Source: Psococerastis gibbosa (taxonomy: Eukaryota > Arthropoda > Insecta > Psocodea > Psocidae). From it: DNA of 64,000 nt. The notes under the pieces were generated by a model that worked only from the letters and a program-made list of their open reading frames with translations, was not told the DNA's origin and searched no databases. Shown piece by piece: positions 3,004 through 64,000 of this stretch (position 1 is the first letter of the stretch; each line of letters begins with the position of its first letter). The position numbers were made by a program, and so were the translations under genes. The stretch is taken from the NCBI GenBank assembly GCA_963971405.1, contig OZ020492.1, positions 7,378,001 through 7,442,000 of the forward strand. Direction: 5' to 3'.

Positions 3004-3220
3004 ATGATAAATAAATAAATATTGACTTTTCGTTCAATTACTAAGCCAACCTAGTGGAGTTAGGGCTTTAAAGCCCCTCTTTTACACTCAACTAGGAAGG
3101 CCATGGACTGCCTGCTTTAGATGCCCTCCGAAGCATGGCCAGAAAATGTAGCAAGTGTGAGACTCGAACCAACAGCCTTTCGGGAGAAAGTCCGTGCCAC
3201 TACTCTCCATGTCCTGATCC
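3004..3220 (-). mobile_element. SINE-T, full copy
   Basis: Reads on the minus strand from a tRNA-like head (GACATGGAGAGTAGTGGCAC as A box region; GGTTCGAGTCTC as B box) through TTTTCTGGCCATGCTTCGGA and a hairpin to GGTTGGCTTAGTAATTGAAC, ending in an (AAAT)n tail at the left. SINE-T is about 200 bp and is the commonest element here. Confidence 0.9.
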
Positions 3221-7034: not shown

Positions 7035-8357
7035 TAGGGTTGCTAGATTAGAAAATTACTTAGTCTGGGCAAAGTTGCAAAATATCGGGGTTTTGTGAAT
7101 TTTGTCGGGGCTAATAAAACATAAAAAGTAATGTTAGTGTGACGAACAAATGAATAATCTACTACAGTAAATTGTGTGGTGATCTCAACGCGCCTTCTTA
7201 GCTTTGTGGCACGGTGCCACTGGCACTGGTTTCAGTATAATTTGTAATGTCTTTTGATGAATAAAAGCAGCCAACGGCCTTACCATGTTGAATCCATGAG
7301 AGCAGAGCATGTTTCAAACTGCGGCAAACTTGGTAGTGTGCACAGCGTTGGCAGGGGAACATGGTGGGACATTATAACGCGCTGCGTGCCTGTCGAGTCT
7401 TGGTCACCTCCGCTTTAATCGTGTGCCCTTACCATAATCCCCAAGTGATTCGGAATCCACTATAATCCAGTTCCACCCTGTCAGTCAACTCCCCTTTCCC
7501 CCGACGTGAAAGATTCTGCCCTTAGGGTGCCTCAAGTTAACAAACAGACTCACTCCCCCCACGAGGCTGACAGGGTTGCTTAAAGCAGAAATGCTGAAAG
7601 CAGGCGTTGGAAACAAACAAAAAAACAATAAATACAAGCATTATTATCATTATTATAATTAAGGTGGCAATTCCCCGAGTATTTAATTTGATTCCCGTCA
7701 GTCTTCTAGAGTTGGATAGCTACAATGCTGTTAAGCGAAATCTAGGGGACTGGCTGATAAATTGTTTAAATGATGGCGATTAATTCTTTTGATTTATTTT
7801 TATTTTATACAGGATAATGTAAGGTAATTTTAACTTATTTAACATTAACTCACTATATAACTGTATTATCATTATTTTATTTACACTTGTAATAATGTAG
7901 TTCGTACTCCCTATAATAACTGTTTGTAGTCTTTTGGCGAATCCTGCCACAAGCCTCCCTTATGGGGCTTACATGCAGTATTCCGGTAAAAACGATTATT
8001 TTCTTTAATCTTGTATTGTATTCTTTCTATTAAATGCTCCCATTGCTGGGGGTACCGGCTGGGGGGGGGGGGACTACTAAGAGAAGGCCCGACGCGTTTT
8101 GGTTAGGATTACATTGTAGTATTATATGGTATATATAACACTGACATTAATTTCGGCTGGTTAGGATAGCGACTTTGCCAACCAGCCATCGATGGTTGTG
8201 AGAAGCGCAGCACCGTTCGTTCTGTAGTGGAAATTCGGTTTTCGCGCGCTTATTTCAACTTTTTTCAAGCCGGGCCATCTTCAGTTTTTTCGGGATTTCG
8301 GGCCGCCAATGAAATGTCGGGACAATCCCGATGAATTCCAGCCGTCTGGCAACTCTT
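7035..8357. mobile_element. hAT-like DNA element, 1.3 kb, non-autonomous
   Basis: Perfect 8-bp target duplications (GCTCTACA) flank it, the signature length for hAT. The ends TAGGGTTGCTAGAT and, reversed, AAGAGTTGCCAGAC match at 10 of 14 bases. G/C-rich motifs such as GTCGGGACAATCCCGA lie near the right end. No transposase frame is visible, so another element must have moved it. A SINE-5S (7270-7627) is nested inside, and a single MITE-3-like end (GGTGGCAATTCCCC) lies at about 7663. A related fragment is at 28945-28998. Confidence 0.85.
7270..7627 (+). mobile_element. SINE-5S, full copy nested in the hAT-like element
   Basis: The head GCCAACGGCCTTACCATGTT matches the start of animal 5S rRNA (GCCAACGNCCATACCACG), and the later TTGGCAGGGGAACATGGTGG resembles the 5S internal control region. 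A family-specific body follows (CCCAAGTGATTCGGAATCCA, TTAACAAACAGACTCACTCC), then an A/C-rich tail. The head likely supplies a type 1 pol III promoter. This is an inference from sequence likeness. Confidence 0.85.
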
Positions 8358-10320: not shown

Positions 10321-10570
10321 AGAAAAAAAAAATTAATATAAAAAGTCAGTGTTATATACTCTATATAATACTGCAATATAATAAGTTTATATATGCATTA
10401 CATTATATCCCAGAGGAGTTTAAATCATTTAGGCTCTCATTGTTTTTCATAATTTGATGAATAGATAAAAAATTATCACTGATTGGGAAAAAATTACTGT
10501 CCGAAACACCCCAAACATCAACATTTCTGGATGAAATGATGCATAAACTAATTATCTACAACTGTGTTAA

Positions 10571-10915
10571 GGCGCCCATTCAACCAACCGGCTAGGGCTA
10601 TTTACAAAAACAGTGACGTGGTAGCAGACATTCAAGACTTAGGCGGGGTTTCCACCGACCTCGCATTGCAGAATTGACGGAAATGTTTATTTTCCTCTAT
10701 TCCATAGTTAAAATTGATCAATGATCATACAGTAAAATCACAAACTAAAATTAAAAAATGGCGTCATGGGATATGTTAAGTACAAAGATTTTAATAGATT
10801 TCTATAAAAAGATTCTGCAATGCGAGGTCGGTGGAAACGCCACCGAAGTCTTGAATGTCTGCTACCACGTCACCGTTTTTGTAAATAGCCCTAGCCGGTC
10901 TGTGGAATGGGCGCC
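10571..10915. mobile_element. MITE-1, PIF/Harbinger-like, full copy
   Basis: Long inverted repeats of about 105 bp begin GGCGCCCATTC and hold GGCTAGGGCTATTTAC, ACGTGGTAGCAGACATTC and CGACCTCGCATTGCAGAAT on both arms. The flanks are TAA (10568-10570, 10916-10918), the 3-bp TWA duplication of PIF/Harbinger elements. The middle (about 130 bp) is AT-rich and non-coding. A second copy is at 34081-34437. Confidence 0.9.
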
Positions 10916-11001
10916 TAAGTAAAATTTCCATAACTTTCATATTAACTTGAAAGAAAATAGTGTCGGAGTTGACCAAAGTCAACTTACTTATAGTCCTCTC
11001 A

Positions 11002-11163: not shown

Positions 11164-11673
11164 TAAAAGACGAGAGACTACACCATTAAAAAACAAACAA
11201 CTGGTAAAGTCAAGAACCAACAAAACTGTGCTTTTTCTTCACAGGCAAAGCACTCCTTTGAGCAAAGGGGCAGCACTTAAGCCAATTCGTTTTTTTCGCA
11301 TTCCTAATTAGAAAAAGTCAAGGCAAAAAAAATGGACATAAAGAAGACGCTGTAAGTAAGGGAGGAGCAAAGAGTGGGGGAAGATTGAAATTTTCCAAAG
11401 ATACATATCTTGATATTACTTGCAAGAGACAGGCCAAGGGAAGAAAGAAAAAAACAGAAGGAGAGAGAAAAAGTAATTAACTGCTGTGAATAAATAATTA
11501 ACAGCGAATGAAAGAAAAAAACTCGCAATGAAAATGTAAAGGCTCCGACGCAAAAGTTAACAACTCCGGCGGGAAAAAAAATTGATGGCCGGCAAAAGCT
11601 TCCACACGGCTATTCAACGCACCCTTATAGGATACCATTGGCTATGTTATTCAACTACTATTTGATAACTTTT
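11164..11673. other. No recognisable feature
   Basis: Purine-rich on the plus strand between about 11320 and 11580. The 74-aa reverse frame is low complexity (F, S and L) and is not a credible gene. Confidence 0.45.
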
Positions 11674-12655
11674 TGCTTTCCAATTTACACGTAGTATAAG
11701 GAAAGCTTTGTGATGGTCAAAATTTTCGATTCCGAGATTTCAACGGTTTTACACGTTCTGAGGTCCCAAGAAAAAGTGGTTTTTACGTAATGTCTGTCTG
11801 TCACTATGTCTGTTCATCAATTTCCGGGCAAACTACTCAGTCGATTTTAATGAAATTTGGCATGTAGGTTCACAAAAATCATACCTCGAGATTGTATTTT
11901 GTATTATGGGCTAACTCAGTTTTAAGGGGTTTTATTCTCAAAAAACTCCAAAAAAAACTTCTAAAAGGTGATTTCTTAAAAACGGCTCCAACGATTTCTT
12001 TTAAATTCACATATATTGTAGTCGTTATTAATATTGATGAAATGCAGGGAGTCGCTTGCCCCTTGATAGCTTGCTTTTGGGAGTAAAAAAATAAAAATAC
12101 GTCAATTTTCATGAAAAATGACTAAAAAATAATTTTTCTGCGGAACCTTTCCATCAATGATTTCTCCCTTCATGCATGTTTTAGATGTTAAATTGAGTAA
12201 CAAAATCGGATTGCTTGCTTTCGTATTTGGTGCAAAAAAGTATTTTTGGAAAAAATTATAGAAAATTCACGCTCAAATGCATTGCGTGTGTTGCCATTAT
12301 TAATGTGTGGTAATGTATTGGTCTGTCCGATCTAGAATATGCAATGCCATCGATGAATTCAATGCTTTGGGATAGGGGATATCCTAGGTCTTTGCAAGAG
12401 GGGGTTCAGGGGGTCCGGACCCCCCCTTCTCCAAATGGTTGCTGCGTACACTAGATAGAATGAGGTTTTAAGGATTTTTAAATATATTGAGGTAACCTCA
12501 CCTCAAGTGACGTCAGATGGAACCCCCCCCCCCCCCCCGAGATATCCGGAATCCGAAATTTAACCATAGGAAAGTTATTTACTTTGAAATTTTTCATTTT
12601 CTCTATCAATTGATAAATTGGAAAGCATGTTCGAGTAAACTCGGACCGGTTCTTG
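11674..12655 (+). mobile_element. Repeat E, longest copy
   Basis: Starts TGCTTTCCAATTTACACGTA followed by TATAAGGAAAGC, so the first 32 bases can fold. It runs through GATTCCGAGATTTCAACGG, a (TGTC) run, GGGCAAACTACTCAGTCGAT and CACATATATTGTAGTCGTTA. Near the right end TAAATTGGAAAGCA repeats the start in reverse, followed by a conserved palindrome CGAGTAAACTCG and CGGTTCTT. It is non-coding. The inner part from about 12200 is shared with 25505-25945. Superfamily uncertain. Confidence 0.8.
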
Positions 12656-15232: not shown

Positions 15233-15370
15233 GGTAACATGGTAGGACTTGTCCTGGTCACCTCCGAACTAATCGTGTGACTTCACTGTGTTTCCCAAGT
15301 GGTTCGGAATCCACTATAATCAGGAGGTCCACTGGAGTCCTATGGGCCCACACCGTGGCCTGGGACTGTA
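15233..15370 (+). mobile_element. SINE-5S subfamily B, 5'-truncated
   Basis: Begins GGTAACATGGTAGGACTTGT and continues TCCTGGTCACCTCCGAACTA, CCCAAGTGGTTCGGAATCCA and GGTCCACTGGAGTCCTATGG. It follows the subfamily seen at 43440-43690, not the one at 21930. The 5S head is missing. Confidence 0.75.
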
Positions 15371-15587
15371 TCAAACTATACTACTAGTAACTAGGTAACC
15401 TTTCACGGTGGTGCCGATTTTTACTATATATAGTAGACAGGAGTCCAAATGCCATTGGCCGAATTCCAGTAATTCAATATTTCATGGAATACAATACCTG
15501 TATAATTTACTACAACGTTTGGATCGAATCTGTGGATCAGGGAAATCGTGAAATAGACCTTTTAAGCATAGTCGACTCGTTCCCATA

Positions 15588-20255: not shown

Positions 20256-21929
20256 AAGCCCTCTTTAATTATTCTATTGTAGGAAAGATAAACATAGAGT
20301 GCTCACAACATATTATCTTATATATGGCGAGTTCTTAAGCATACTCTGTATTATAAGATGTATATAAGGTGACGTGGTTAAGATTTCATCTCCACCTTAA
20401 TACCGTGATGATAGATAGCCTGAGTTCCGACCGACCTCATAAAATTCACCCTCTCAAAACATGAGACCAAGCCCATTAATTCTAGTTAACTATCCGACAA
20501 GTCTTCGCTTTCCTCATCCACCAATGCGCAACTTATAGAGAATCCCTATGAACTATAATTTTTAATTGAGATGATAGGCTATACTATAGGTAAGTTGTAA
20601 CTTTATAAATGAGGACTGTAAGTGTTTAATACAGTGGCGGGCACAGCTTTTTGTTTGGGTGGGAGGGGGGGTTACGTGAGCACCAAAAATGCTTAATGTT
20701 CCATCCATCAAATAATCGTCAACAGCACCTCTTTAGCGTTTATTTAAATGTCATGCAACGAACTAGTATTTTTATATCTCAGGGGGTTAAGGCCAAGCAG
20801 GAGAGCTGTGGCCTTGAGCGTTGAGTGAGGAATACATAGAAATATAATAGAACTGGAGCGGTGGGAGCCATAATATGCCTTACGAGGCACCCGTTAACCA
20901 TAAGCCAACTATCAGAGATAAGTACCAACGCAAAAAATATCGAAGTCTTACATATTGCAGCATAGCAAAGCGGATACCTGGACCCGAATTCTTAAACCGC
21001 CGCTAAACCATCGCCATGCGTAGTATTTCAAAAGGAAAATGCGAAATTCGTATATCGTTCCGAGCCAACTATATGACGAACATCTACTTGAAACTAACTT
21101 TTGATACATCCATACAGTTTATGAAGTGAAAGCGGTTGGGTGCCTTACGGCGAAGCATTTAAAACGTAATAAAAGCCAACTACAGCGACAATGGGTTTAC
21201 AAGATTGAGTTACCACGCTTCGGCTCTCATTTTTAGACAAACATTTACGCATTTACTGGTTAATTCTCTGTTGTAATTACGAAACCAGCAGCGTTTTGAA
21301 TATTATGACTCCTCCGCCGCTTTTCTTTGTCGTCCGACTTTCGACCCCAAAACTTAGTTAACTCTTTAAGGATGTAATTGTAACAGCAGCAAACGAAGCT
21401 TGAGTGGGCCGTCCCTTAGGTTATGCACCCTCTTTCCTATTACAAACTTGTCTCTTTCCCAATTTATCCCTTTGTTTGTGGTTTCCCTAGATTATTAGGG
21501 ATTTTTAGGGGTAGCTTATCCACCCATCTCATAGAAAGAACCACGACGATCGTAATTCTAATCTCGACTGTCTACGCCAGAACCAAGCAAGCTGTGGCCA
21601 AACAAGTGCTGATAACTGATGCGGTGTCTTCTCTACCTTGTGCTGACAATTTGTCCTCAATTGCATAATAATGACTCACTATGTACAGCTAAAGGTAATA
21701 CGCGTATGTACCAGTGTACCTATAGCTTGCTGTTATCAATTTTGCGCCAATAAGAGCGCAAGTTACATGTCGTTTAGACTACTGACGGCCTATGGGTAGG
21801 CACCCTGAAGAGGGCAATTCCGAGGCAACTCCCAAGCAGAAGGTTGAGAAGAAGAAAAAGAGAGAAACAGCGCAGCTGCAGAATGTTATTAGGGTTAGTG
21901 TATATTTATATTATAATATTGTATGTTAA
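20256..21929. other. Unassigned DNA
   Basis: CAGTGGCGGGCACAGCTTTT at 20634 followed by a G run resembles a single hAT-like end. The 81-aa frame at 21423-21668 is not recognisable. Nothing else supported in 1.7 kb. Confidence 0.4.
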
Positions 21930-22292
21930 CGCCAACGGCCTTACCATGTTGATTCCATTAGAGCAGAGCATGTTTCAAACTGCAGCAACTTGGTAGTGTG
22001 CACAGCGTTGGCAGGGGAACCTGGTGGGACATGATTATTCGCTTAGGCAGTATAAGTCGAGTCCTGGTCACCTCCAATTTAATCGTGTGACTTTACCATG
22101 TTCCCCAAGTGGTTCGGAATCCACTATAATCAGGAGGTCCACACTGTTAGTCAACCCCCCTTTCCCCGAGGTGAAAGAGTCTGCCCTTAGGGTGCCTCAA
22201 GTTAACAAACAGACTCACTCCCCCCGCCAGGCTGACAGGGTTGCTTAAAAGCAGAAATGCTGAAAGCAGGCGTTAGAAACAACAACAACAAC
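21930..22292 (+). mobile_element. SINE-5S subfamily A, full copy with perfect target duplication
   Basis: The head GCCAACGGCCTTACCATGTT is 5S-like. The body has CCCAAGTGGTTCGGAATCCA, CAGGAGGTCCAC and TTAACAAACAGACTCACTCC. The tail is (AAC)n. The 14-bp sequence ATATTGTATGTTAA lies directly before (21916-21929) and after (22293-22306), so the copy is complete at both ends and moved by target-primed reverse transcription. The 74-aa frame it carries is incidental. Confidence 0.93.
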
Positions 22293-22306
22293 ATATTGTA
22301 TGTTAA

Positions 22307-23367: not shown

Positions 23368-24150
23368 CGGGTCCGAGTTTACTCGAAATTGCTTTCCAAT
23401 TTATCAATTAGTAGATATAAAATGAGTAATTCCATGGTAAATAATTTTCCTATAGTTAAATTTCGGGCATCTGACACAGCAATAATGGCAGGGGCACGTA
23501 ATGCATTTGACCGTGAATTTTCTATCATTTTTTCAAACACATTTTTTTGCACAAAACCAAATAGTTTTTTTGGAAAGCAACCTGTCCCGTTTCGTTACAC
23601 AATTTAAAATCTAAAACATGCCTGAAGGTAGAAATCATTGACAGAAAGGTTTCGCAGAAAAATTATTTTATAGTCATTTTTCATAAAAATTTAGTTATTT
23701 TTATTTTTTACCCCCAAAAGCAAACTATCAAGGGGCAAGTGACCCCCCGCATTTTATCAACATTAATAACGACTACAACATATGTGAATTTAAAAGAAAT
23801 CGTTGCTGCCGTTTTTGAGAAATAATTTTTTTTGACGTTTTTTTGGAGTTTTTTAGTTTTTTAAGAATAAAACCACCCCAAATTGAGTTAGCCAAAAAAA
23901 AAAATTGTCCCGAGGTATGATTTTTTTGAACCTACACGCAAAATTTAATCAAAATCGACCGAGTAGTTTGCCCGGAAATCGATGAACAGACAGACAGACA
24001 GACAGAGCGAGAGACAGACAGAAGACATTTCGTAAAAATCACTTTTTTGGGTTCCTGGGACCTCAAAACGTGTAAATCCGTTGAAATCTCGGAATCGAAA
24101 ATTTCGACCGTCACAAAGCTTTCCTTATACTACGTATAAATTGGAAAGCA
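23366..24150 (-). mobile_element. Repeat E, inserted in repeat C
   Basis: Minus-strand copy. The plus strand starts GGGTCCGAGTTTACTCG, then TTGCTTTCCAATTTATC, and ends ATACTACGTATAAATTGGAA. The body has CCCCCAAAAGCAAACTATC and a (GACA) run near 23990. Uninterrupted repeat C copies show the unoccupied site. The palindromic CGAGTTTACTCG block is inside the insertion, so it belongs to E. I see no target duplication. Confidence 0.85.
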
Positions 24151-24428
24151 ATGAAGCTCAAAATTCATGGGGTCGTTGGCTTTGGACAAATTATTATTAT
24201 ATATAAACAGGCTGTCAGCTGTGAGACAAGCAAAGACAATAGAAAATATTAAGAACTTTTCAGCTATATTTCATATTAGGGTTATTATTATTAAATAGTT
24301 AAATGTTTTTTTATGTTCGGTTGTTTTTTAATACCTTATACGGCTGCAGGAGCATGCATCCCAACCAGCCCATTTTCATGTTTGCAAGTTAAAAACCCCC
24401 TACCCTAGGGAAAGTACAGTAGGCTATA

Positions 24429-25289: not shown

Positions 25290-25500
25290 CCCCCTCCCCT
25301 CAATTTATAAAAAATTTAAACGTTGGTAGAGAGCTTGAAAGTCGAGGAAATTAGGCTCCACCTCACCTTAATGGTTGGAGAAAACGCTGCTGTTGGGCAT
25401 GTTGCTGACCGTAATACCTCAAATAGGCTAGGGGTTAAGTAAGAGGTTCCTTTCCCCAAGCCTAAATCCTCCAGTAGTATCTGATAACTTGGTTCTGGGG
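25290..25500 (+). mobile_element. SINE-N-like element, copy 2
   Basis: GTAGAGAGCTTGAAAGTCGA resembles the head at 39650. TGGTTGGAGAAAACGCTGCT, GTTGGGCATG and TGCTGACCGTAATACCTCAA match that copy's body. The B box is poorly kept. Confidence 0.5.
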
Positions 25501-25504
25501 ACAA

Positions 25505-25945
25505 AAAATTAAAAAAAACTCAATATTCATGGAAAATGACTAAAAAATAATTTTTCAGCGGAACCTTTCTATGGATGCTTTCTTATTTCAGGTATGTTTT
25601 AGGTGCTAAATTTAGTAACAAAACCGAACAGGTTCCTTTCCAAAACAAATATTTTATTTAGAACAAAAAATTATTTTTTGAAGAAATAATAAGATAATTT
25701 ATGTCCCCATACTTAGCGTAGCATACCCTGCCAGTATTACATTATTGTATCGTATTATATAATTCTGCCCATTCTTGACTATGCAACCATTCCAACGATC
25801 AATTCAGGGCTTTGGGATAGGGAAACTCGAAATGTAAACCTAAACCTAGGACAAATATTTACCAAGGAACTATTATAGTACCTATCCTAATTGATAAATA
25901 GGAAAGCATGTACGGGTTTACTCGTAACGGTTCTTTATTAATACA
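25505..25945 (+). mobile_element. Repeat E, right-hand part only
   Basis: AAATGACTAAAAAATAATTT, GCGGAACCTTTCTATGG, GGCTTTGGGATAGGGAAACT and TTGATAAATAGGAAAGCATG follow copy 1 from about 12095 to 12655, including the terminal ACGGTTCTTTATTA. The left half is missing. Confidence 0.75.
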
Positions 25946-26942: not shown

Positions 26943-27060
26943 CAGGCAATACTATAAATGTCATTGGTCATGGCCTATGTCTTTAACCCTGCCCGCCCCC
27001 TAGCTCAACAGCTGGCGAAGACCCTGAAACTAACGTTATGAATTTTATAGGTGTCTTATA

Positions 27061-29334: not shown

Positions 29335-29489
29335 TTATAGTACTAGAAGTACTAGAACAAAATGTCATTATTTATGTATTCTTACAAATTATAATGTATA
29401 AATTAATATTAAAATAAAATAATTGTAGATGCGCAACCTGAGTAATATGGTGAGTAGGTCACTAGAAAGTAATTTTCATCTTTCATCGC

Positions 29490-29855
29490 TCGCCAACGGC
29501 CTTGCCATGTTGATTCCATTAGAGCAGAGCATGTTTCAAACTGCGGCAACTTGGTAGTGTGCACAGCGTTGGCAGGGGAACCTGGTGGGACATGATAACT
29601 CGCTCAGGCAGTATAAGTCGAGTCCTGGTCACCTCCGATTTAATCGTGTGACTTTACCATGTTCCCCAAGTGGTTCGGAATCCACTATAATCAGGAGGTC
29701 CACCCTGTTAGTCAACTCCCCTTTCCCCGAGGTGAAAGAGTCTGCCCTTAGGGTGCCTCAAGTTAACAAACAGACTCACTCCCCCCGCCAGGCTGACAGG
29801 GTTGCTTAAAGCAGAAATGCTGAAAGCAGGCGTTAGAAACAACAACAACAACAAC
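29490..29855 (+). mobile_element. SINE-5S subfamily A, full copy with target duplication
   Basis: Nearly identical to the copy at 21930: 5S-like head GCCAACGGCCTTGCCATGTT, the same body, (AAC)n tail. The 11-bp TCTTTCATCGC flanks it (29479-29489, 29856-29866). The closeness of the two copies and intact flanks suggest recent activity. Confidence 0.93.
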
Positions 29856-30091
29856 TCTTTCATCGCAATTCATATATAAAGTTAAGCCTTTAGAAAAACA
29901 TATCACAGAAGCTAACCATTAGCTATGACGTTCCGTTCTGCTTGAAGAACAACTAACAAGCAATTAAACTGAGTCAAGTTAATATGTTCTTTTAGTATAT
30001 TGTATAAGCTACTCACTAAACTCGGAAGGAAATTTGTGTGGCTGGGAGAAAATTCATTTAGAACAAGTACCTTAGTGTAGAAGTAAAAAAT

Positions 30092-30739: not shown

Positions 30740-30994
30740 GGCGGCAATTCCACCGGCGAATTTACTTCATTTGTGATTTGAGATTTTTTGTTTGGTTTGT
30801 TTTAAGGGGAATTTTATGTAGATACTATTATCTATTATAAATTAAGTTATAACATGGTAGCAAACATCATTAATAATATTATAACTTAATTTATAACAGA
30901 TAAGCTAAGTATCTACATAATAGTCTCCTTAAAACAAAACAAACAAAAAATCTCAAATTACAAATGATGTAAATTCGCCGGTGGAATTGCCGCC
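30740..30994. mobile_element. MITE-3, hairpin element, 255 bp
   Basis: Inverted repeats of about 110 bp: GGCGGCAATTCCACCGGCGA, ATTTAC, TCAAATTACAAATGA-type block, AAAACAAACCAAACAAAAAA-type block, TAGATACT, TTATAACTTAATTTATAA. The left flank is TAA and the right GAA. The interior ATGGTAGCAAACAT parallels GTGGTAGCAGACAT of MITE-1. Confidence 0.88.
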
Positions 30995-34080: not shown

Positions 34081-34437
34081 CTATTCCACCGACCGGCTAT
34101 GGCTATTTACAAAAACAGTGACGTGGTAGCAGACATTCAAGACTTAGGCGGGGTTTCCACCGACCTCGCATTGCAGAATTGACGGAAATGTTTATTTTCC
34201 TCTATGCCATAGTTAAAATTGATCAATGATCATACAGTAAAATCACAAACAAACTAAAATTAAAAAAAAGGCGTCATGGGATATATTAAGTACAAACATT
34301 TTAATAGATTTCTATAAAAAGAAAAATTCTAATTTCCGTCAATGTCATTTGCATTCTGCAATGCGAGGTCAGTGGAAACGCCGCCTAAGTCTTGATTGTC
34401 TGCTACCACGTCACCGTTTTTGTAAATAGCCCTAGCC
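34081..34437. mobile_element. MITE-1, copy 2, ends worn
   Basis: ATTCCACCGACCGGCTATGG begins it without the GGCGCC terminus. The arms and middle follow copy 1 closely (CATAGTTAAAATTGATCAAT, GTCATGGGATATATTAAGTA). It keeps TTTCCGTCAATGTCATTTGC, which copy 1 has lost. Confidence 0.88.
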
Positions 34438-43394: not shown

Positions 43395-43690
43395 AGTACC
43401 GTAGTAGTAGTAGTAGTAGTAGTAGTGTTCGTCGGCTTAATAACGACTTAGGCCTCATTTGGGCCCAGAGCGACCCCGACTTGACTGTCCTATGCCAGCC
43501 CATAGGACAGTGGACCTCCTGATTATAGCGGATTCCGAACCACTTGGGAAACACAGTGAAGTCACACGATTAGTTCGGAGGTGACCAGGACAAGTCCTAC
43601 CATGTTTCCCTACCGGCACTGTGCACACGACCAAGTTATCTGCAGATTTGAACCTGCTCTGGTCCGCTGGATTTAACTTGGTATGGCGGC
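43395..43690 (-). mobile_element. SINE-5S subfamily B, full copy
   Basis: On the minus strand: head GGCCGCCATACCAAGTTAAA, which is closer to 5S rRNA (GNCCATACCACGTTGAA) than subfamily A. Then TAACTTGGTCGTGTGCACAG, GGTAGGGAAACATGGTAGGA, TCCTGGTCACCTCCGAACTA, AAGTGGTTCGGAATCCGCTA, and a 3' part of its own (CCTATGGGCTGGCATAGGAC, GGGCCCAAATGAGGCCTAAG). The tail is (ACT)n, seen as (GTA)n at 43399-43424. Confidence 0.88.
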
Positions 43691-43954
43691 CGGTATGCAG
43701 TACCGTACCTAGAGTTTTATATGTGAGAGGGGGGACATTAAAAATATTTTTTTAATCCCGGGGCCACCTGATAAGATTTCCCAATGCCCCCTCAATCTTG
43801 GTCTCTCTAAGAGCCTTCAACCCTCTGGTTTCTCACTGAAACTCTTCTTTGTAGCCTGGTCTTTAGGAAGCCTCCTGACGTGTAGTGTCAGTGTATTATT
43901 TCTCTAGCTACCTCTTTCAATTCGATTCTCTTTTAAAAAAGATTAATCTCATAA

Positions 43955-48296: not shown

Positions 48297-49390
48297 TATG
48301 TCTTTTGTTGAGGAAATCTGGGGCACTTTAGTGTCGCTAATGCTTTCCACAGGGCCCATCCCTCCGAGCCTTCTCCCTTCGCTGTTCTTAACGCAATAGT
48401 CAACTTGAAACCTGATGGTAACAGTCACAAGTAACACTTTTGGTCGCGAGACTGGTAACGATTTTAACAAATAACAAATTTGTACGTTGTAAATTGACTG
48501 CGGTCCTGTAAAACAGGTCGGTATCAAATTAAATTAACCTATCATCCTACTAAAGCAGAAAAAAAAAACATTCTTCCACACTCGCAGACAAATTTGGAAA
48601 GCAATAGGACGCCATTCGTAGTGTCCGCAGTAAATTCTAAACAAGAAGCCATATGTCCCCCAACTACCGTAATAAATTGTTATTATTATGAAGATATAAA
48701 AACAATTAAAAGATGAAATACTGGCTATAGATGAAGAGACGATAGCGCATGCGCAAAGGGTTATGCCCGAAGATGCCGACTGCCATCTAGAAAGTGACGA
48801 ACGGCTTCAAGATTTCATGTCTTCGTGATGTGCATACCACTTAACGGCCTTACGACCAGCCAAAGCATTGCCGCGCCGAAGACTGGTGTGTCTTTTCTTG
48901 TTATGACATAAAACCTTGCTGATTGATCGTAGGCGACTGCTGGAATTTTTAGTGTGTCGGTTTGAGATGAAAAAGGCGTATCTCAAAATCGCGCCTACCT
49001 TGTCGGTAGTCAACATGAAATATACGGTACCTATATACCTGTTATGAGTAGTTGGCTTGTTACTTAATTTATTTTTTACACTAAACTGGTGTAATAAACT
49101 CCTGGTTTTTTTTTACTATATCGCTGCAACTACGATATCAGCACAGATGAGCCATCTTATACTATCATATTACAAAAATTAGACGTATATGGTATATAGT
49201 ACATGTTTTGATTATTTAAAAGGATTTTAATTGAACCTGCTGTTTCTTTGTTTCCAACGACTGCATTCAGCATTTTTTTAATGCTACCCTCGCACGCTGC
49301 TGGATTCAGGCGCGACACTTCAACTTTCTTTACATTTGTATAAAAAAAATTTTAGGAAACTTACACCCATTATTATTATTTTAAACAATT
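48297..49390. other. No recognisable feature
   Basis: ATATGGTATATAGTACATGT near 49190 echoes SINE-J flanks. No gene. Confidence 0.4.
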
Positions 49391-49692
49391 CTGTCAGCCT
49401 GGTGGGGGGAGTGAGTCTGTTTGTTATTTTGAGGCACTCTAAGGACAGATTCTTTCACCTCGGGGGAAGGGGAGTTGACTGACAAAGTGGACCTCCTGAT
49501 TACAGTGGATTCCGAACCACTTGGGGAACATGGTAAAGTCATACGGTTAAATCGGTGGTGAACAGGACTGGATACGAACGTAGACTGACTGTAATAGTCT
49601 CAGCGCGTTATCATGTCCCACCTAGTACCCCTGCCAACGCTGTGCACACTAAAAAGTTTGCCATAGTTTGAAACATGGTCTGCTCTCATCAA
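49391..49692 (-). mobile_element. SINE-5S subfamily A, nearly full, no AAC tail
   Basis: On the minus strand: GAGAGCAGACCATGTTTCAA, TTTAGTGTGCACAGCGTTGG, GGTGGGACATGATAACGCGC, ACCACTTGG-type block CCCAAGTGGTTCGGAATCCA, CAGGAGGTCCAC, AAACAGACTCACTCCCCCCA, CAGGCTGACAG. An extra block (CAGTCTACGTTCGTATCCAG) lies in the middle. The first 30 or so bases of the 5S-like head and the 3' tail are missing. Confidence 0.85.
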
Positions 49693-51170
49693 ATTAAATA
49701 AAAATAAACATCCTCAGTAGAAAATGCAGACCGTAGATAAACCCCTGAACAGCACCAAAATCAATTTACACTGCAAGTTATTAAATATTTACTATATCCT
49801 AGCTTGAGTTGAGTATTTCATGCATCCTGTTACACTGCACCGATACCGTAAGAAATTTAGTAGCTTTGGGTGCAGGGATTTTTAAAGACAAAAATTTAAA
49901 ACAGCTGATTTGTGATATCATTTTCACTTTGACTGGTCGCCATATTGATATCGTTGATTTGTCGTAAAAAGTGTAAATACTATAATTGTAGATACATCTT
50001 TGGACTTTTAGCCACATGTTATGTAATTCCTCTATGACCAATTTTAACTGAGATATGATTTTTTTACGTGTTTGATCGGGCGCCATCTTTAAACAAAATG
50101 ATGGATCGCGCTGGTTAACGAACTCGATCAAGACAATAGTATGATAAAATTTTGTACCAAGTTTCATTCTAATCGGATAATACCTACGAAAGTAACAGTG
50201 TTTCTTAAAATCGATATACATACATAAATAAATATGTATAACTGTAACTTCGTTAATACGACCTTGATCGAAATCAGTTTTTAACCTTTTCCATTTGAAC
50301 TAGTTCTGAATATAACTGTGGAAAAAGTTTTGCTCTATCTCTATTGGTTCGCGAGTAATCGCATAGCCTGGTTCGAACCCCTCATCTTTAAAACAATTCT
50401 ACTTGTGCGCTAGAGCCACGATAGGTGTAAGAATACATTGCAGGAGTTTGTATGAGGTGAGTTTAGCCGAAAGGGACGAAAAATAAAAGAGGAAGTGTAC
50501 TCTTATACGGTTCGATCTCAGGTTGTCATGATTTAAAACCTGCCACCTTCCGTATTAGACTACACCACCTCTTATAAATACAAGCAAAACAACGGGTACT
50601 TCAATTTAATAATATTCGAATGCTCACTTGCTGATACAAAAACAAATCGATTGCTGTTTTTATGATTATTTTTGAATTGTTATGGAAACTATAAGCGTGA
50701 GTGTTTTAGCTCTGTGTGGCAAAACAATGCTGAAATTTCCAGGTCATTCAGACATTTGAAATAACGAAAATTGCCAGAGGGCCAAATTTTGGTACATAGC
50801 TTGGGTTTACAATTAGAAATAATATGTCAGAAATCCCCATCGATCCCATGTGTGCTAAAGAAGTTATTCGCGGTCAAAGGTCAAAATATCATTTTTTTTT
50901 TGTTTTTCTCGAAAACGGTAATTTTTATCAAAAAATTATGTTGACAAAAGTTGTAGATCTTTTACTTTTCTTCAAAAAAGGTTTCCATCATTTTTCTTCT
51001 AATGACCACCATTGCTGAGATATCGCGCTTGCAAGGGTCACGTTCCACATAATGTGCACATACATCATACAATATATGCATATTTAGGTACTTAAGGCGC
51101 CTATTCGAGTCTCTTACTTGTATAAACTACATTATTAATCGAAAATGTACACTTTATAAAATATATGCAT
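49693..51170. other. Unassigned; a 140-aa reverse frame and transposon-like prose
   Basis: The 140-aa frame at 49799-50221 (minus) matches no family. The plus strand beneath contains TACCAAGTTTCATTCTAATC, a phrase typical of non-coding invertebrate repeats, as is TGTTGACAAAAGTTGTAGAT near 50940. TTAAGGCGCCTATTC at 51092 is a lone MITE-1-like terminus. Confidence 0.4.
50355..50572 (-). mobile_element. Two adjacent tRNA-like heads
   Basis: On the minus strand, GGTGGTGTAGTCTAATACGG with GAGATCGAACC about 40 bases on (50508-50572). Then CGTGGCTCTAGCGCACAAG with GGGGTTCGAACC (50360-50425). Each has A-box and B-box spacing but no perfect stems. Likely SINE heads or tRNA relics. Confidence 0.35.
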
Positions 51171-52366: not shown

Positions 52367-52531
52367 TATAATCAGGAGGTCCACCCTGTCAGTCAACTCC
52401 CCTTCTCCCCGAGGTGAAAGAGTCTGCCCATAGGGTACCTCAAGTTAAGAAATAGACTCACTCCCTCCGCCAGGCTGACAGGGTTGCTTAAAGTAGAAAT
52501 GCTGAAAGTGGGCGTTGGAAAACAAACAGAA
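52367..52531 (+). mobile_element. SINE-5S subfamily A, 5'-truncated
   Basis: Starts abruptly at TATAATCAGGAGGTCCACCC and keeps CCGAGGTGAAAGAGTCTGCC, CCAGGCTGACAGGGTTGCTT, GGGCGTTGG and an A-rich tail. The whole 5S-like head is missing, as expected of incomplete reverse transcription. Confidence 0.9.
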
Positions 52532-63070: not shown

Positions 63071-63409
63071 TAATTAAGAATAGAAATCGACAGACAATGA
63101 TTAGGAATAGAGATGAAGTTTGATAGTAATCTTAGATGGATGTTTTATCTACGCTTAATTCGCGAGTAGGGGGGTTTTGTAAGCCTTTTCGAAACAGACG
63201 TCACTCACTCACATTTATAATTACTAGTTGGTGCTGTCTTGCATTTAAATCCTTCATCGATTGTACAATGCCCTGACACGCCCTCTGTTATGTCGGAATC
63301 AGGATATATTTTGTCTTCTATGGATTTATCTTCCTTGAAGCACAACTGGATTTACTGAATATGCTTTTGACTATAGGACCCCACAAATAGCGCTCCTTGC
63401 AGAAATTAT

Positions 63410-64000
63410 TGCTTTCCAATTTATACGTAGTATAAGGAAAGCTTTGTGACGGTCGAAATTTTTGATTCCGAGATTTCAATGGATTTACACGTTTTGAGAT
63501 CCCAGGAACCAAAAAAAGTGGTTTTTACTAAATGTCTGTCTGTCGCTCTGTCTGTCGCTCTGTCGCTCTGTCTGTCGCTCTGTCGCTCTGTCTGTCGCTC
63601 TGTCGCTCTGTCTGTCTGTCTGTTCATCGATTTCCAGGCTAACTACTCGGTCGATTTAAATGAAATTTGGCATGTAGGCTTATAAAACTCATACCTCGAG
63701 ACAATTTTTTTTTTTTTTTTTGGCGAACTTAATTTGGGGGGTTTTTTTTTCTCAAAAAACGATTTCTTTTAAATTCACATATATTGTAGTCATTATTAAT
63801 GTTAATAAAATGCGGGGGGTCGCTTGTCCCTTGATAGTTTGCTTCTGAGGGTAAAAAAAATAAAAATATTTAAATTTGAGTGAAAAATGACTAAAAAATC
63901 ATTTCTCTGCGAAATCTTTCTATTTATGATTTCTAACTTCAAGCATGTTTTAGGTGTTTAATTGAGTAATGAAACCGGATAGTTTGGTTTTCCAAGAAAC
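63410..64000 (+). mobile_element. Repeat E, copy running off the right edge
   Basis: TTGCTTTCCAATTTATACGT, AGTATAAGGAAAGCTTTGTG, GATTCCGAGATTTCAATGGA, the CTGTC array, CTACTCGGTCGATTTAAATG, ATATTGTAGTCATTATTAAT. Collinear with 11674 onward to the last base. Confidence 0.88.
63534..63624 (+). repeat. 12/20-bp minisatellite within repeat E
   Basis: Units of CTGTCTGTCGCT and CTGTCGCT alternate, grown from the shorter (CTGT) run found in other copies. The repeat makes Ser-Val-Cys-Leu peptides in one frame, which are not genes. Confidence 0.92.

Follow-up and report, generated by a model that had tools for sequence, protein, structure and literature searches.

In the 64,000-nucleotide stretch of DNA analysed here (the window) and in the genome around it, we found what is, with a probability of about 80%, a recently active lineage of 5S rRNA-derived SINEs in an arthropod, the ancestral head of which followed 5S rRNA to about nucleotide (nt) 70 and was without nt 71–108. 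The origin of the head from 5S rRNA, the mark of SINE3 descent, is supported at the level of sequence comparison. A sequence-only reading of the same DNA had placed the elements in the SINE3 class. The 5S half of that assignment stood, through collinearity with 5S and shared helices, whereas the type 1 internal promoter did not, because box C was not found. Since the 5S origin holds and box C is missing, we regard the elements as a 5S-derived SINE variant and not as a standard SINE3 member.

The window contains seven SINE pieces, five of family A and two of family B (from eight blastn matches, one copy being split over two). Their positions, and the parts of the best preserved copy, are as follows.

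7270–7627, + strand: older family A copy (88%), with no duplication of at least 8 bp found
15233–15390, + strand: family B copy of subtype B1, 5'-truncated, 3' end approximate
21916–21929: left copy of a 14 bp target-site duplication, ATATTGTATGTTAA
21931–22292, + strand: full-length family A copy, 98.1% identical to the 28-copy consensus
21931–22012, + strand: head of this copy, putative 5S-derived module with helices I and II, gamma arm mostly absent
22061–22142, + strand: its central domain, common to family B (about 91% alike)
22108–22125, + strand: hairpin AGTGG-TTCGGAAT-CCACT inside this central domain
22143–22277, + strand: its 3' body and tail region, specific to family A
22278–22292, + strand: its (AAC)n tail
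22293–22306: right copy of the 14 bp duplication, ATATTGTATGTTAA
29479–29489: left copy of an 11 bp target-site duplication, TCTTTCATCGC
29492–29855, + strand: full-length family A copy
29856–29866: right copy of the 11 bp duplication, TCTTTCATCGC
43401–43694, − strand: family B copy of subtype B2 with a (CTA)n tail and TACGGTACTGCAT at both flanks (by eye)
49248–49697, − strand: older family A copy in two pieces (82% and 81%)
52367–52528, + strand: family A copy, 5'-truncated

The interval 21916–22306 is exactly one SINE copy plus both of its 14 bp duplications, with one additional C (21930) between the left duplication and the element; two additional bases (29490–29491) stand at the same place in the 29492 copy. 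The earlier claim that direct repeats bound these two copies, 14 bp at 21916–22306 and 11 bp at 29479–29866, was correct apart from these 1–2 extra 5' bases. The (AAC)n tail had also been recognised rightly: it is seen at 22278–22292 and across family A, where its length varies between copies.

The family A consensus, built from 28 aligned copies, is 363 bp long, and nine of the 28 are without mismatch to it (gaps not counted), in a sample that is skewed toward young copies because those most like the window copy had been picked. Direct repeats of at least 8 bp (range 8–17) flanked 27 of 31 family A copies, compared with 83 of 3100 controls with mismatched flanks, so that this short element bears the LINE-type target-site duplications expected of a SINE. 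The median duplication length over all 31 copies was 13 bp. These 31 were the copies that the scan covered, eight older or truncated A pieces and the family B copies being left aside, and up to four extra bases were tolerated at the copy end. Truncation at the 5' end was seen in four family A copies that were inspected, and the consensus contains no TTTT run. The genome was searched over 409 Mb in 68 contigs, 98.8% of it in ten. An exact 34-mer of the family A head occurred 881 times and one of the tail 1071 times, each about half per strand, and the reversed-pattern controls gave 0. Two A copies on different contigs (L028 and L032) have the identical 13 bp target duplication ATTTCTATATCTT, which reflects either a duplicated region or insertions into the same site of another repeat.

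In order to judge the head, the host genome's own 5S genes were used as reference. The statement that the first 20 bases of the SINE are 5S-like was confirmed: the stretch GCCAACGGCCTTACCATGTT is identical to the host gene at 19 of 20 positions, or 21 of 22 across the aligned stretch, and it occurs three times in the window at up to 3 mismatches and not at all in 100 shuffles. Positions 1–30 of the family A and family B consensuses scored z 10.3 and z 8.7 against host 5S, with none of 1000 dinucleotide shuffles as high in either case. Both alignments begin exactly at 5S nt 1 and are strong over the first 22–31 nt. Apart from the clusters on C15, full-length 5S matches were present at 1–4 per contig on C1, C2, C3, C12, C13, C14, and C19; all of them were above the Rfam cut-off and among the best 47 of 14106 candidates scored, and they are possibly retrocopies or moved genes.

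A second statement, that a later block resembles the 5S internal control region, did not survive comparison with the young consensuses. Positions 26–110 were equalled by 302 of 1000 shuffles for A and 386 of 1000 for B, and promoter-focused tests by 942 to 1374 of 3000. When the promoter tests were made conditional on the first 25 nt, shuffles did as well in 1001 of 2000 (A) and 294 of 2000 (B) cases. The minus strand of 5S gave nothing against the young consensuses. Rfam model RF00001 did not match the window at E up to 1, or any of four SINE copies (the 21931 copy and three others) at E up to 10, and the Rfam scan of the window and these four copies returned no 5S, tRNA, or 7SL match in them. 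On the young-consensus tests alone, therefore, only the first 22–31 nt would count as 5S. The significant match of the young families at nt 1–31 only would also fit a template switch that joined a 5S head to an older SINE body; genuine 5S would then amount to about 30 nt, and the helix I partner strand would be a product of selection for pairing. Such an origin was proposed for HaSE3 in the accessible part of PMC3272025.

Older copies bear directly on this question. A pattern that fixed only head nt 6–16 and 67–83 found 166 copies, and a consensus was built from nine of the 166; the pattern favours the 5S-like form at the fixed nucleotides, and the first five bases were assumed. This older consensus is closer to 5S than the young families are, being collinear with nt 1–70 and then jumping to nt 109–118. 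Outside the pattern-fixed stretch, at nt 17–66, none of 3000 shuffles matched 5S as well, and the figures were 7 of 3000 for nt 24–66 and 30 of 3000 for nt 32–66. When one free deletion in 5S was allowed, the best was nt 71–108, a result equalled by none of 500 versions with nt 26–83 shuffled. With the pattern-fixed ends kept, it was equalled by 0 of 500 when nt 17–66 were shuffled and by 8 of 500 when only nt 26–66 were. The last value means that the 5S match of the middle is not overwhelming, and it speaks for the template switch. The deletion of nt 71–108 was also the best for the A consensus, for the older copies L026 and L041, and for the majority head, whereas B preferred 71–102; beyond nt 25 this deletion model is weak, with shuffles as good in 34 of 500 cases for the majority head, 119 for A, 17 for L026, 40 for L041, and 79 for B. 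Against a template switch stand the greater nearness of the older consensus to 5S, with a match through nt 66, and the same head architecture in A and B, and we consider that origin unlikely compared with descent of the whole head from 5S.

The missing stretch, nt 71–108, is most of the 5S gamma arm (66–109 in the host 5S fold). We take the 5S promoter boxes to lie at 50–64 (A), 67–72 (IE), and 80–97 (C), which would place box C inside the missing stretch. An exact box C was found nowhere in the genome 46–76 nt upstream of the central domain (exact forms only). Box A has a partial match in the older consensus, shares 9 of its 15 letters with the A consensus, and is not present at up to 6 mismatches in B. 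The young heads may thus fail to match the 5S control region because nt 71–108 are missing, as the older copies suggest. That the element is instead an ordinary SINE3 with a working type 1 promoter of boxes A, IE, and C seems to us quite improbable. Its 5' end is indeed 5S, and the young consensus offers letters that align like box C (ACTTGG..GTG). In the older consensus, however, these letters align to 5S helix II and box A, with nt 71–108 missing; positions 26–110 and the promoter block score like shuffles; and the genome-wide search gave no exact box C at the proper distance, where diverged forms are possible. On these alignments, the best reading of the head is a 5S rRNA that retains both termini, helices I and II, and a beta arm about as long as in 5S, and that is without most of the gamma arm.

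We further found that the predicted secondary structure of the head agrees with that of 5S. From an alignment of five A-lineage and six B heads, with no structure supplied, RNAalifold paired the 5' end with nt 76–83 (helix I) and nt 13–20 with nt 58–65 (helix II). The helices are at the same places in the host 5S fold, where helix I lies at 1–9 and helix II starts from 14. In the aligned heads 97.5% of cells pair, compared with 17–46% when the 3' partners are slid. Changes on both sides were present in 4 of 15 pairs; the covariation score was reached by none of 500 shuffles and the number of such pairs by 34 of 500. This covariation corresponds to few events, perhaps two, inherited by several rows; it comprises two adjacent pairs that separate A from B, wobble changes, and a single pair of the second domain. 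Among shuffles that kept the first 25 nt, both helices could be formed in 164 of 20000 for A and in 152 of 20000 for B. The older copy L041 also has both (32 of 20000 shuffles), and the older copy L026, taken alone, failed the two-helix test. Family A offers nt 13–20 two alternative partners, at 37 and at 88. The older consensus offers them one alone, at 58, where 8 of 8 pairs form. Folded singly, the head was not more stable than shuffles (z +0.55). As far as these predictions go, the retention of 5S helices I and II in place, with some compensatory changes, is supported.

Family B shares 71% identity with A over element positions 9–213, and 91% in the central part, positions 132–213 (copy at 15251). 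It has its own head, an exact 34-mer of which occurs 1873 times genome-wide, and two distinct 3' ends (B1 and B2), each leading into (CTA)n. For a central-domain 34-mer that A and B share, the count was 5204; the reversed-pattern controls again gave 0 for both. With one head type, one central domain, and several tails, A and B therefore form a small superfamily. The CORE, V, Deu, and other SINE superfamilies also have a conserved central domain under differing 3' tails, and A and B resemble them in layout. At L003:1440–2051 a family A copy sits inside a family B copy, flanked by 11 bp of duplicated B sequence (by eye), so that A is the younger of the two at that place. A dimeric element that had been considered at C15 was dropped, since it proved to be a family A insertion within a copy of family B.

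In the consensus fold of ten copies, the central domain follows on the head with a helix 85–96/186–198, inner helices, and the hairpin AGTGG-TTCGGAAT-CCACT. In this whole fold 95.6% of cells were paired, compared with 31–42% when slid. Both-side changes were found in 4 of 51 pairs, three of them in helix I, and the covariation score was reached by none of 500 shuffles, the both-side change count by 204 of 500. The whole family A RNA folded with z −1.74 relative to shuffles. Because the domain alone is only slightly more stable than shuffles (z −1.48 for A and −0.59 for B), its fold should be taken as a prediction. A 29-base piece of the central domain had no exact match in viral and prokaryote genome contigs, a set from which close relatives of this genome's records may be absent. 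The hairpin, which has the same letters in the A and B consensuses, arose in 25 of 20000 shuffles and may resemble the T arm of a tRNA, its loop being one base longer; this likeness is a lead only, because the hairpin criterion was set after seeing it.

The same hairpin, identical in A and B and rare in shuffles by that post hoc count, is an argument for a tRNA-derived SINE (SINE2), in which it would descend from a T arm (box B plus one base) and the 5S likeness of the first 22 nt would be due to chance or to later capture. Family B also contains one exact loose box B, GWTCRANNC, at nt 42. For this motif search we relied on generally known tRNA box consensuses, and an exact tRNA box A is absent from both A and B. 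Moreover, 20 host tRNA loci (of 50 listed) fitted the elements no better than shuffles did (125 of 300 for A, 176 of 300 for B), whereas a tRNA-derived SINE family of the same window, C, used as positive control for this test, scored 39, where its 300 shuffles averaged 24 and reached at most 33. The older consensus, in addition, is collinear with 5S to nt 70. A tRNA origin is consequently very improbable in our estimation. Derivation from 7SL (SINE1) was rejected, its fit being weak (35 of 500 shuffles as good for A, 217 of 500 for B). A better fit of tRNA or 7SL than of 5S had been named beforehand as an outcome that would speak against a 5S origin. Neither occurred, tRNA scoring like shuffles and 7SL only weakly, and the 5S origin of the head stood.

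Family C itself is about 200 bp long; its tRNA-like head has the box B GGTTCGAGTCC, and its tail is (TATTTATT)n-like. It occurs in the window at 3010, 4564, 12858, 26741, 34602, 35821, 40375, 47732, and 48100, and has partial copies at 27059 and 29186. ARAGORN found no tRNA in the window. Among other repeats, an AT-rich, near-perfect palindrome with 87 nt arms (93% complementary) at 30740–30994 is probably a MITE; its sub-threshold Rfam match to MIR841, at 39.7 bits compared with a gathering score of 200, is most likely spurious. A MITE-like element with long inverted repeats is present in two copies, 87% alike, at 10570–10916 and 34083–34437 (arms of 105 and 85 nt). A larger dispersed repeat has diverged copies at 11673–12308, 23474–24152, 25482–25822, and 63403–64000. 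Three open reading frames of the window gave nothing in a Pfam scan at E up to 0.01.

According to the tests above, the ancestral head ran from the first base of 5S to about nt 70, with the 3' helix I strand of 5S closing it; behind it come the central domain that A and B share and then the differing 3' ends, which finish in (AAC)n or (CTA)n. On these grounds the following life cycle may be proposed. The RNA presumably starts at the base equivalent to 5S +1, because the majority of full-length copies start at this base, preceded by few others; one nested family A copy carries more extra 5' bases than the other full-length copies. Transcription is probably carried out by RNA polymerase III, with a promoter different from a complete type 1 promoter. 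With box C gone, that promoter would have to be unusual. Insertion into the genome would proceed by target-primed reverse transcription, with the enzyme supplied by a LINE able to recognise the tail. The genome does contain LINE-like reverse transcriptases. No partner LINE was found in the sequence searched, where the family A tail was seen only on SINE copies plus chance-level matches; a B1-like tail without the body at L027:3599–3632 is a weak match.

The remark that 5S-derived SINEs are known mostly from fish was right in part and incomplete. Lepidopteran families have been published, namely HaSE3 (PMC3272025), PxSE4 and PxSE5 (PMC8010984), and others (PMC10886601), and Tribolium SINE3-1_TC is cited in the accessible text of PMC3272025 and PMC8010984. 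As far as these texts extend, the lepidopteran SINE3 families resemble ours in their insect host, 5S-derived head, and short non-coding body, as well as in target duplications, which two of the first three HaSE3-type copies have. PxSE4, PxSE5, and CsSE2 have short-repeat tails, as families A and B do; the tails of the lepidopteran families are (TGA)n or (ATGT)n, those of A and B (AAC)n or (CTA)n. Judged by their descriptions, the heads of HaSE3, PxSE4, and PxSE5 carry boxes A, IE, and C (PMC3272025, PMC8010984), in contrast to the family A head, which has no box C. In the families described in PMC10886601 the promoter is better conserved than the part upstream of it, whereas here, comparing descriptions, it is the 5' end that is conserved. 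SINE3-1_TC, known to us by citation only, is like A and B a 5S-derived SINE, and its host is a non-lepidopteran insect. The Ajax elements of nemerteans, in the available portion of PMC10886601, are likewise mobile elements with a part of 5S; however, they are LTR elements that retain only the A-IE-C promoter part and have 5 bp duplications, unlike A and B, which retain the 5' part of 5S and have longer duplications. No 5S SINE without box C was described in the full-text literature searched, and Repbase, outside that search, may already hold the present family. A search of the same literature for SINE3 in Hemiptera found no publication.

The host had been taken for a probable arthropod, and its mitochondrial contig (17,084 bp) bears this out. 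Here cox1 (Pfam) reads with the invertebrate mitochondrial code, and nad2, cox1, cox2, atp6, and cox3 are consecutive on one strand (order by eye), which we take to be the ancestral arthropod mitochondrial order. The same contig has a tandem array at L023:7717–8103, visible as a repeating reading frame. Nuclear copies of cox1 are frequent and many of them short, with 43 matches including the true mitochondrial gene, and one at G000:C14:11085363–11086704 comprises nearly the whole gene in two pieces.

The ten contigs that hold 98.8% of the genome are not in keeping with the chromosome numbers known for Lepidoptera, and the host range of 5S SINEs among arthropods may accordingly widen. 5S-derived SINEs are usually explained by the internal 5S promoter. 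A different and, in our view, doubtful proposal is that RNA folding, rather than promoter function, is the reason why the 5S part was retained. The arm with box C would have been given up and the alpha-beta domain of 5S (helices I to III) preserved, in part through compensatory changes. RPL5 binds 5S; the head could, as a 5S mimic, bind such a protein and so reach ribosomes or the nucleolus and there encounter the LINE machinery, while transcription would have moved elsewhere, for example to the T-arm-like hairpin. Thousands of copies without box C, but with the 5' end of 5S and two of its helices, would separate promoter from RNA structure as the reason for a 5S head, and this question would thereby become testable in cells.
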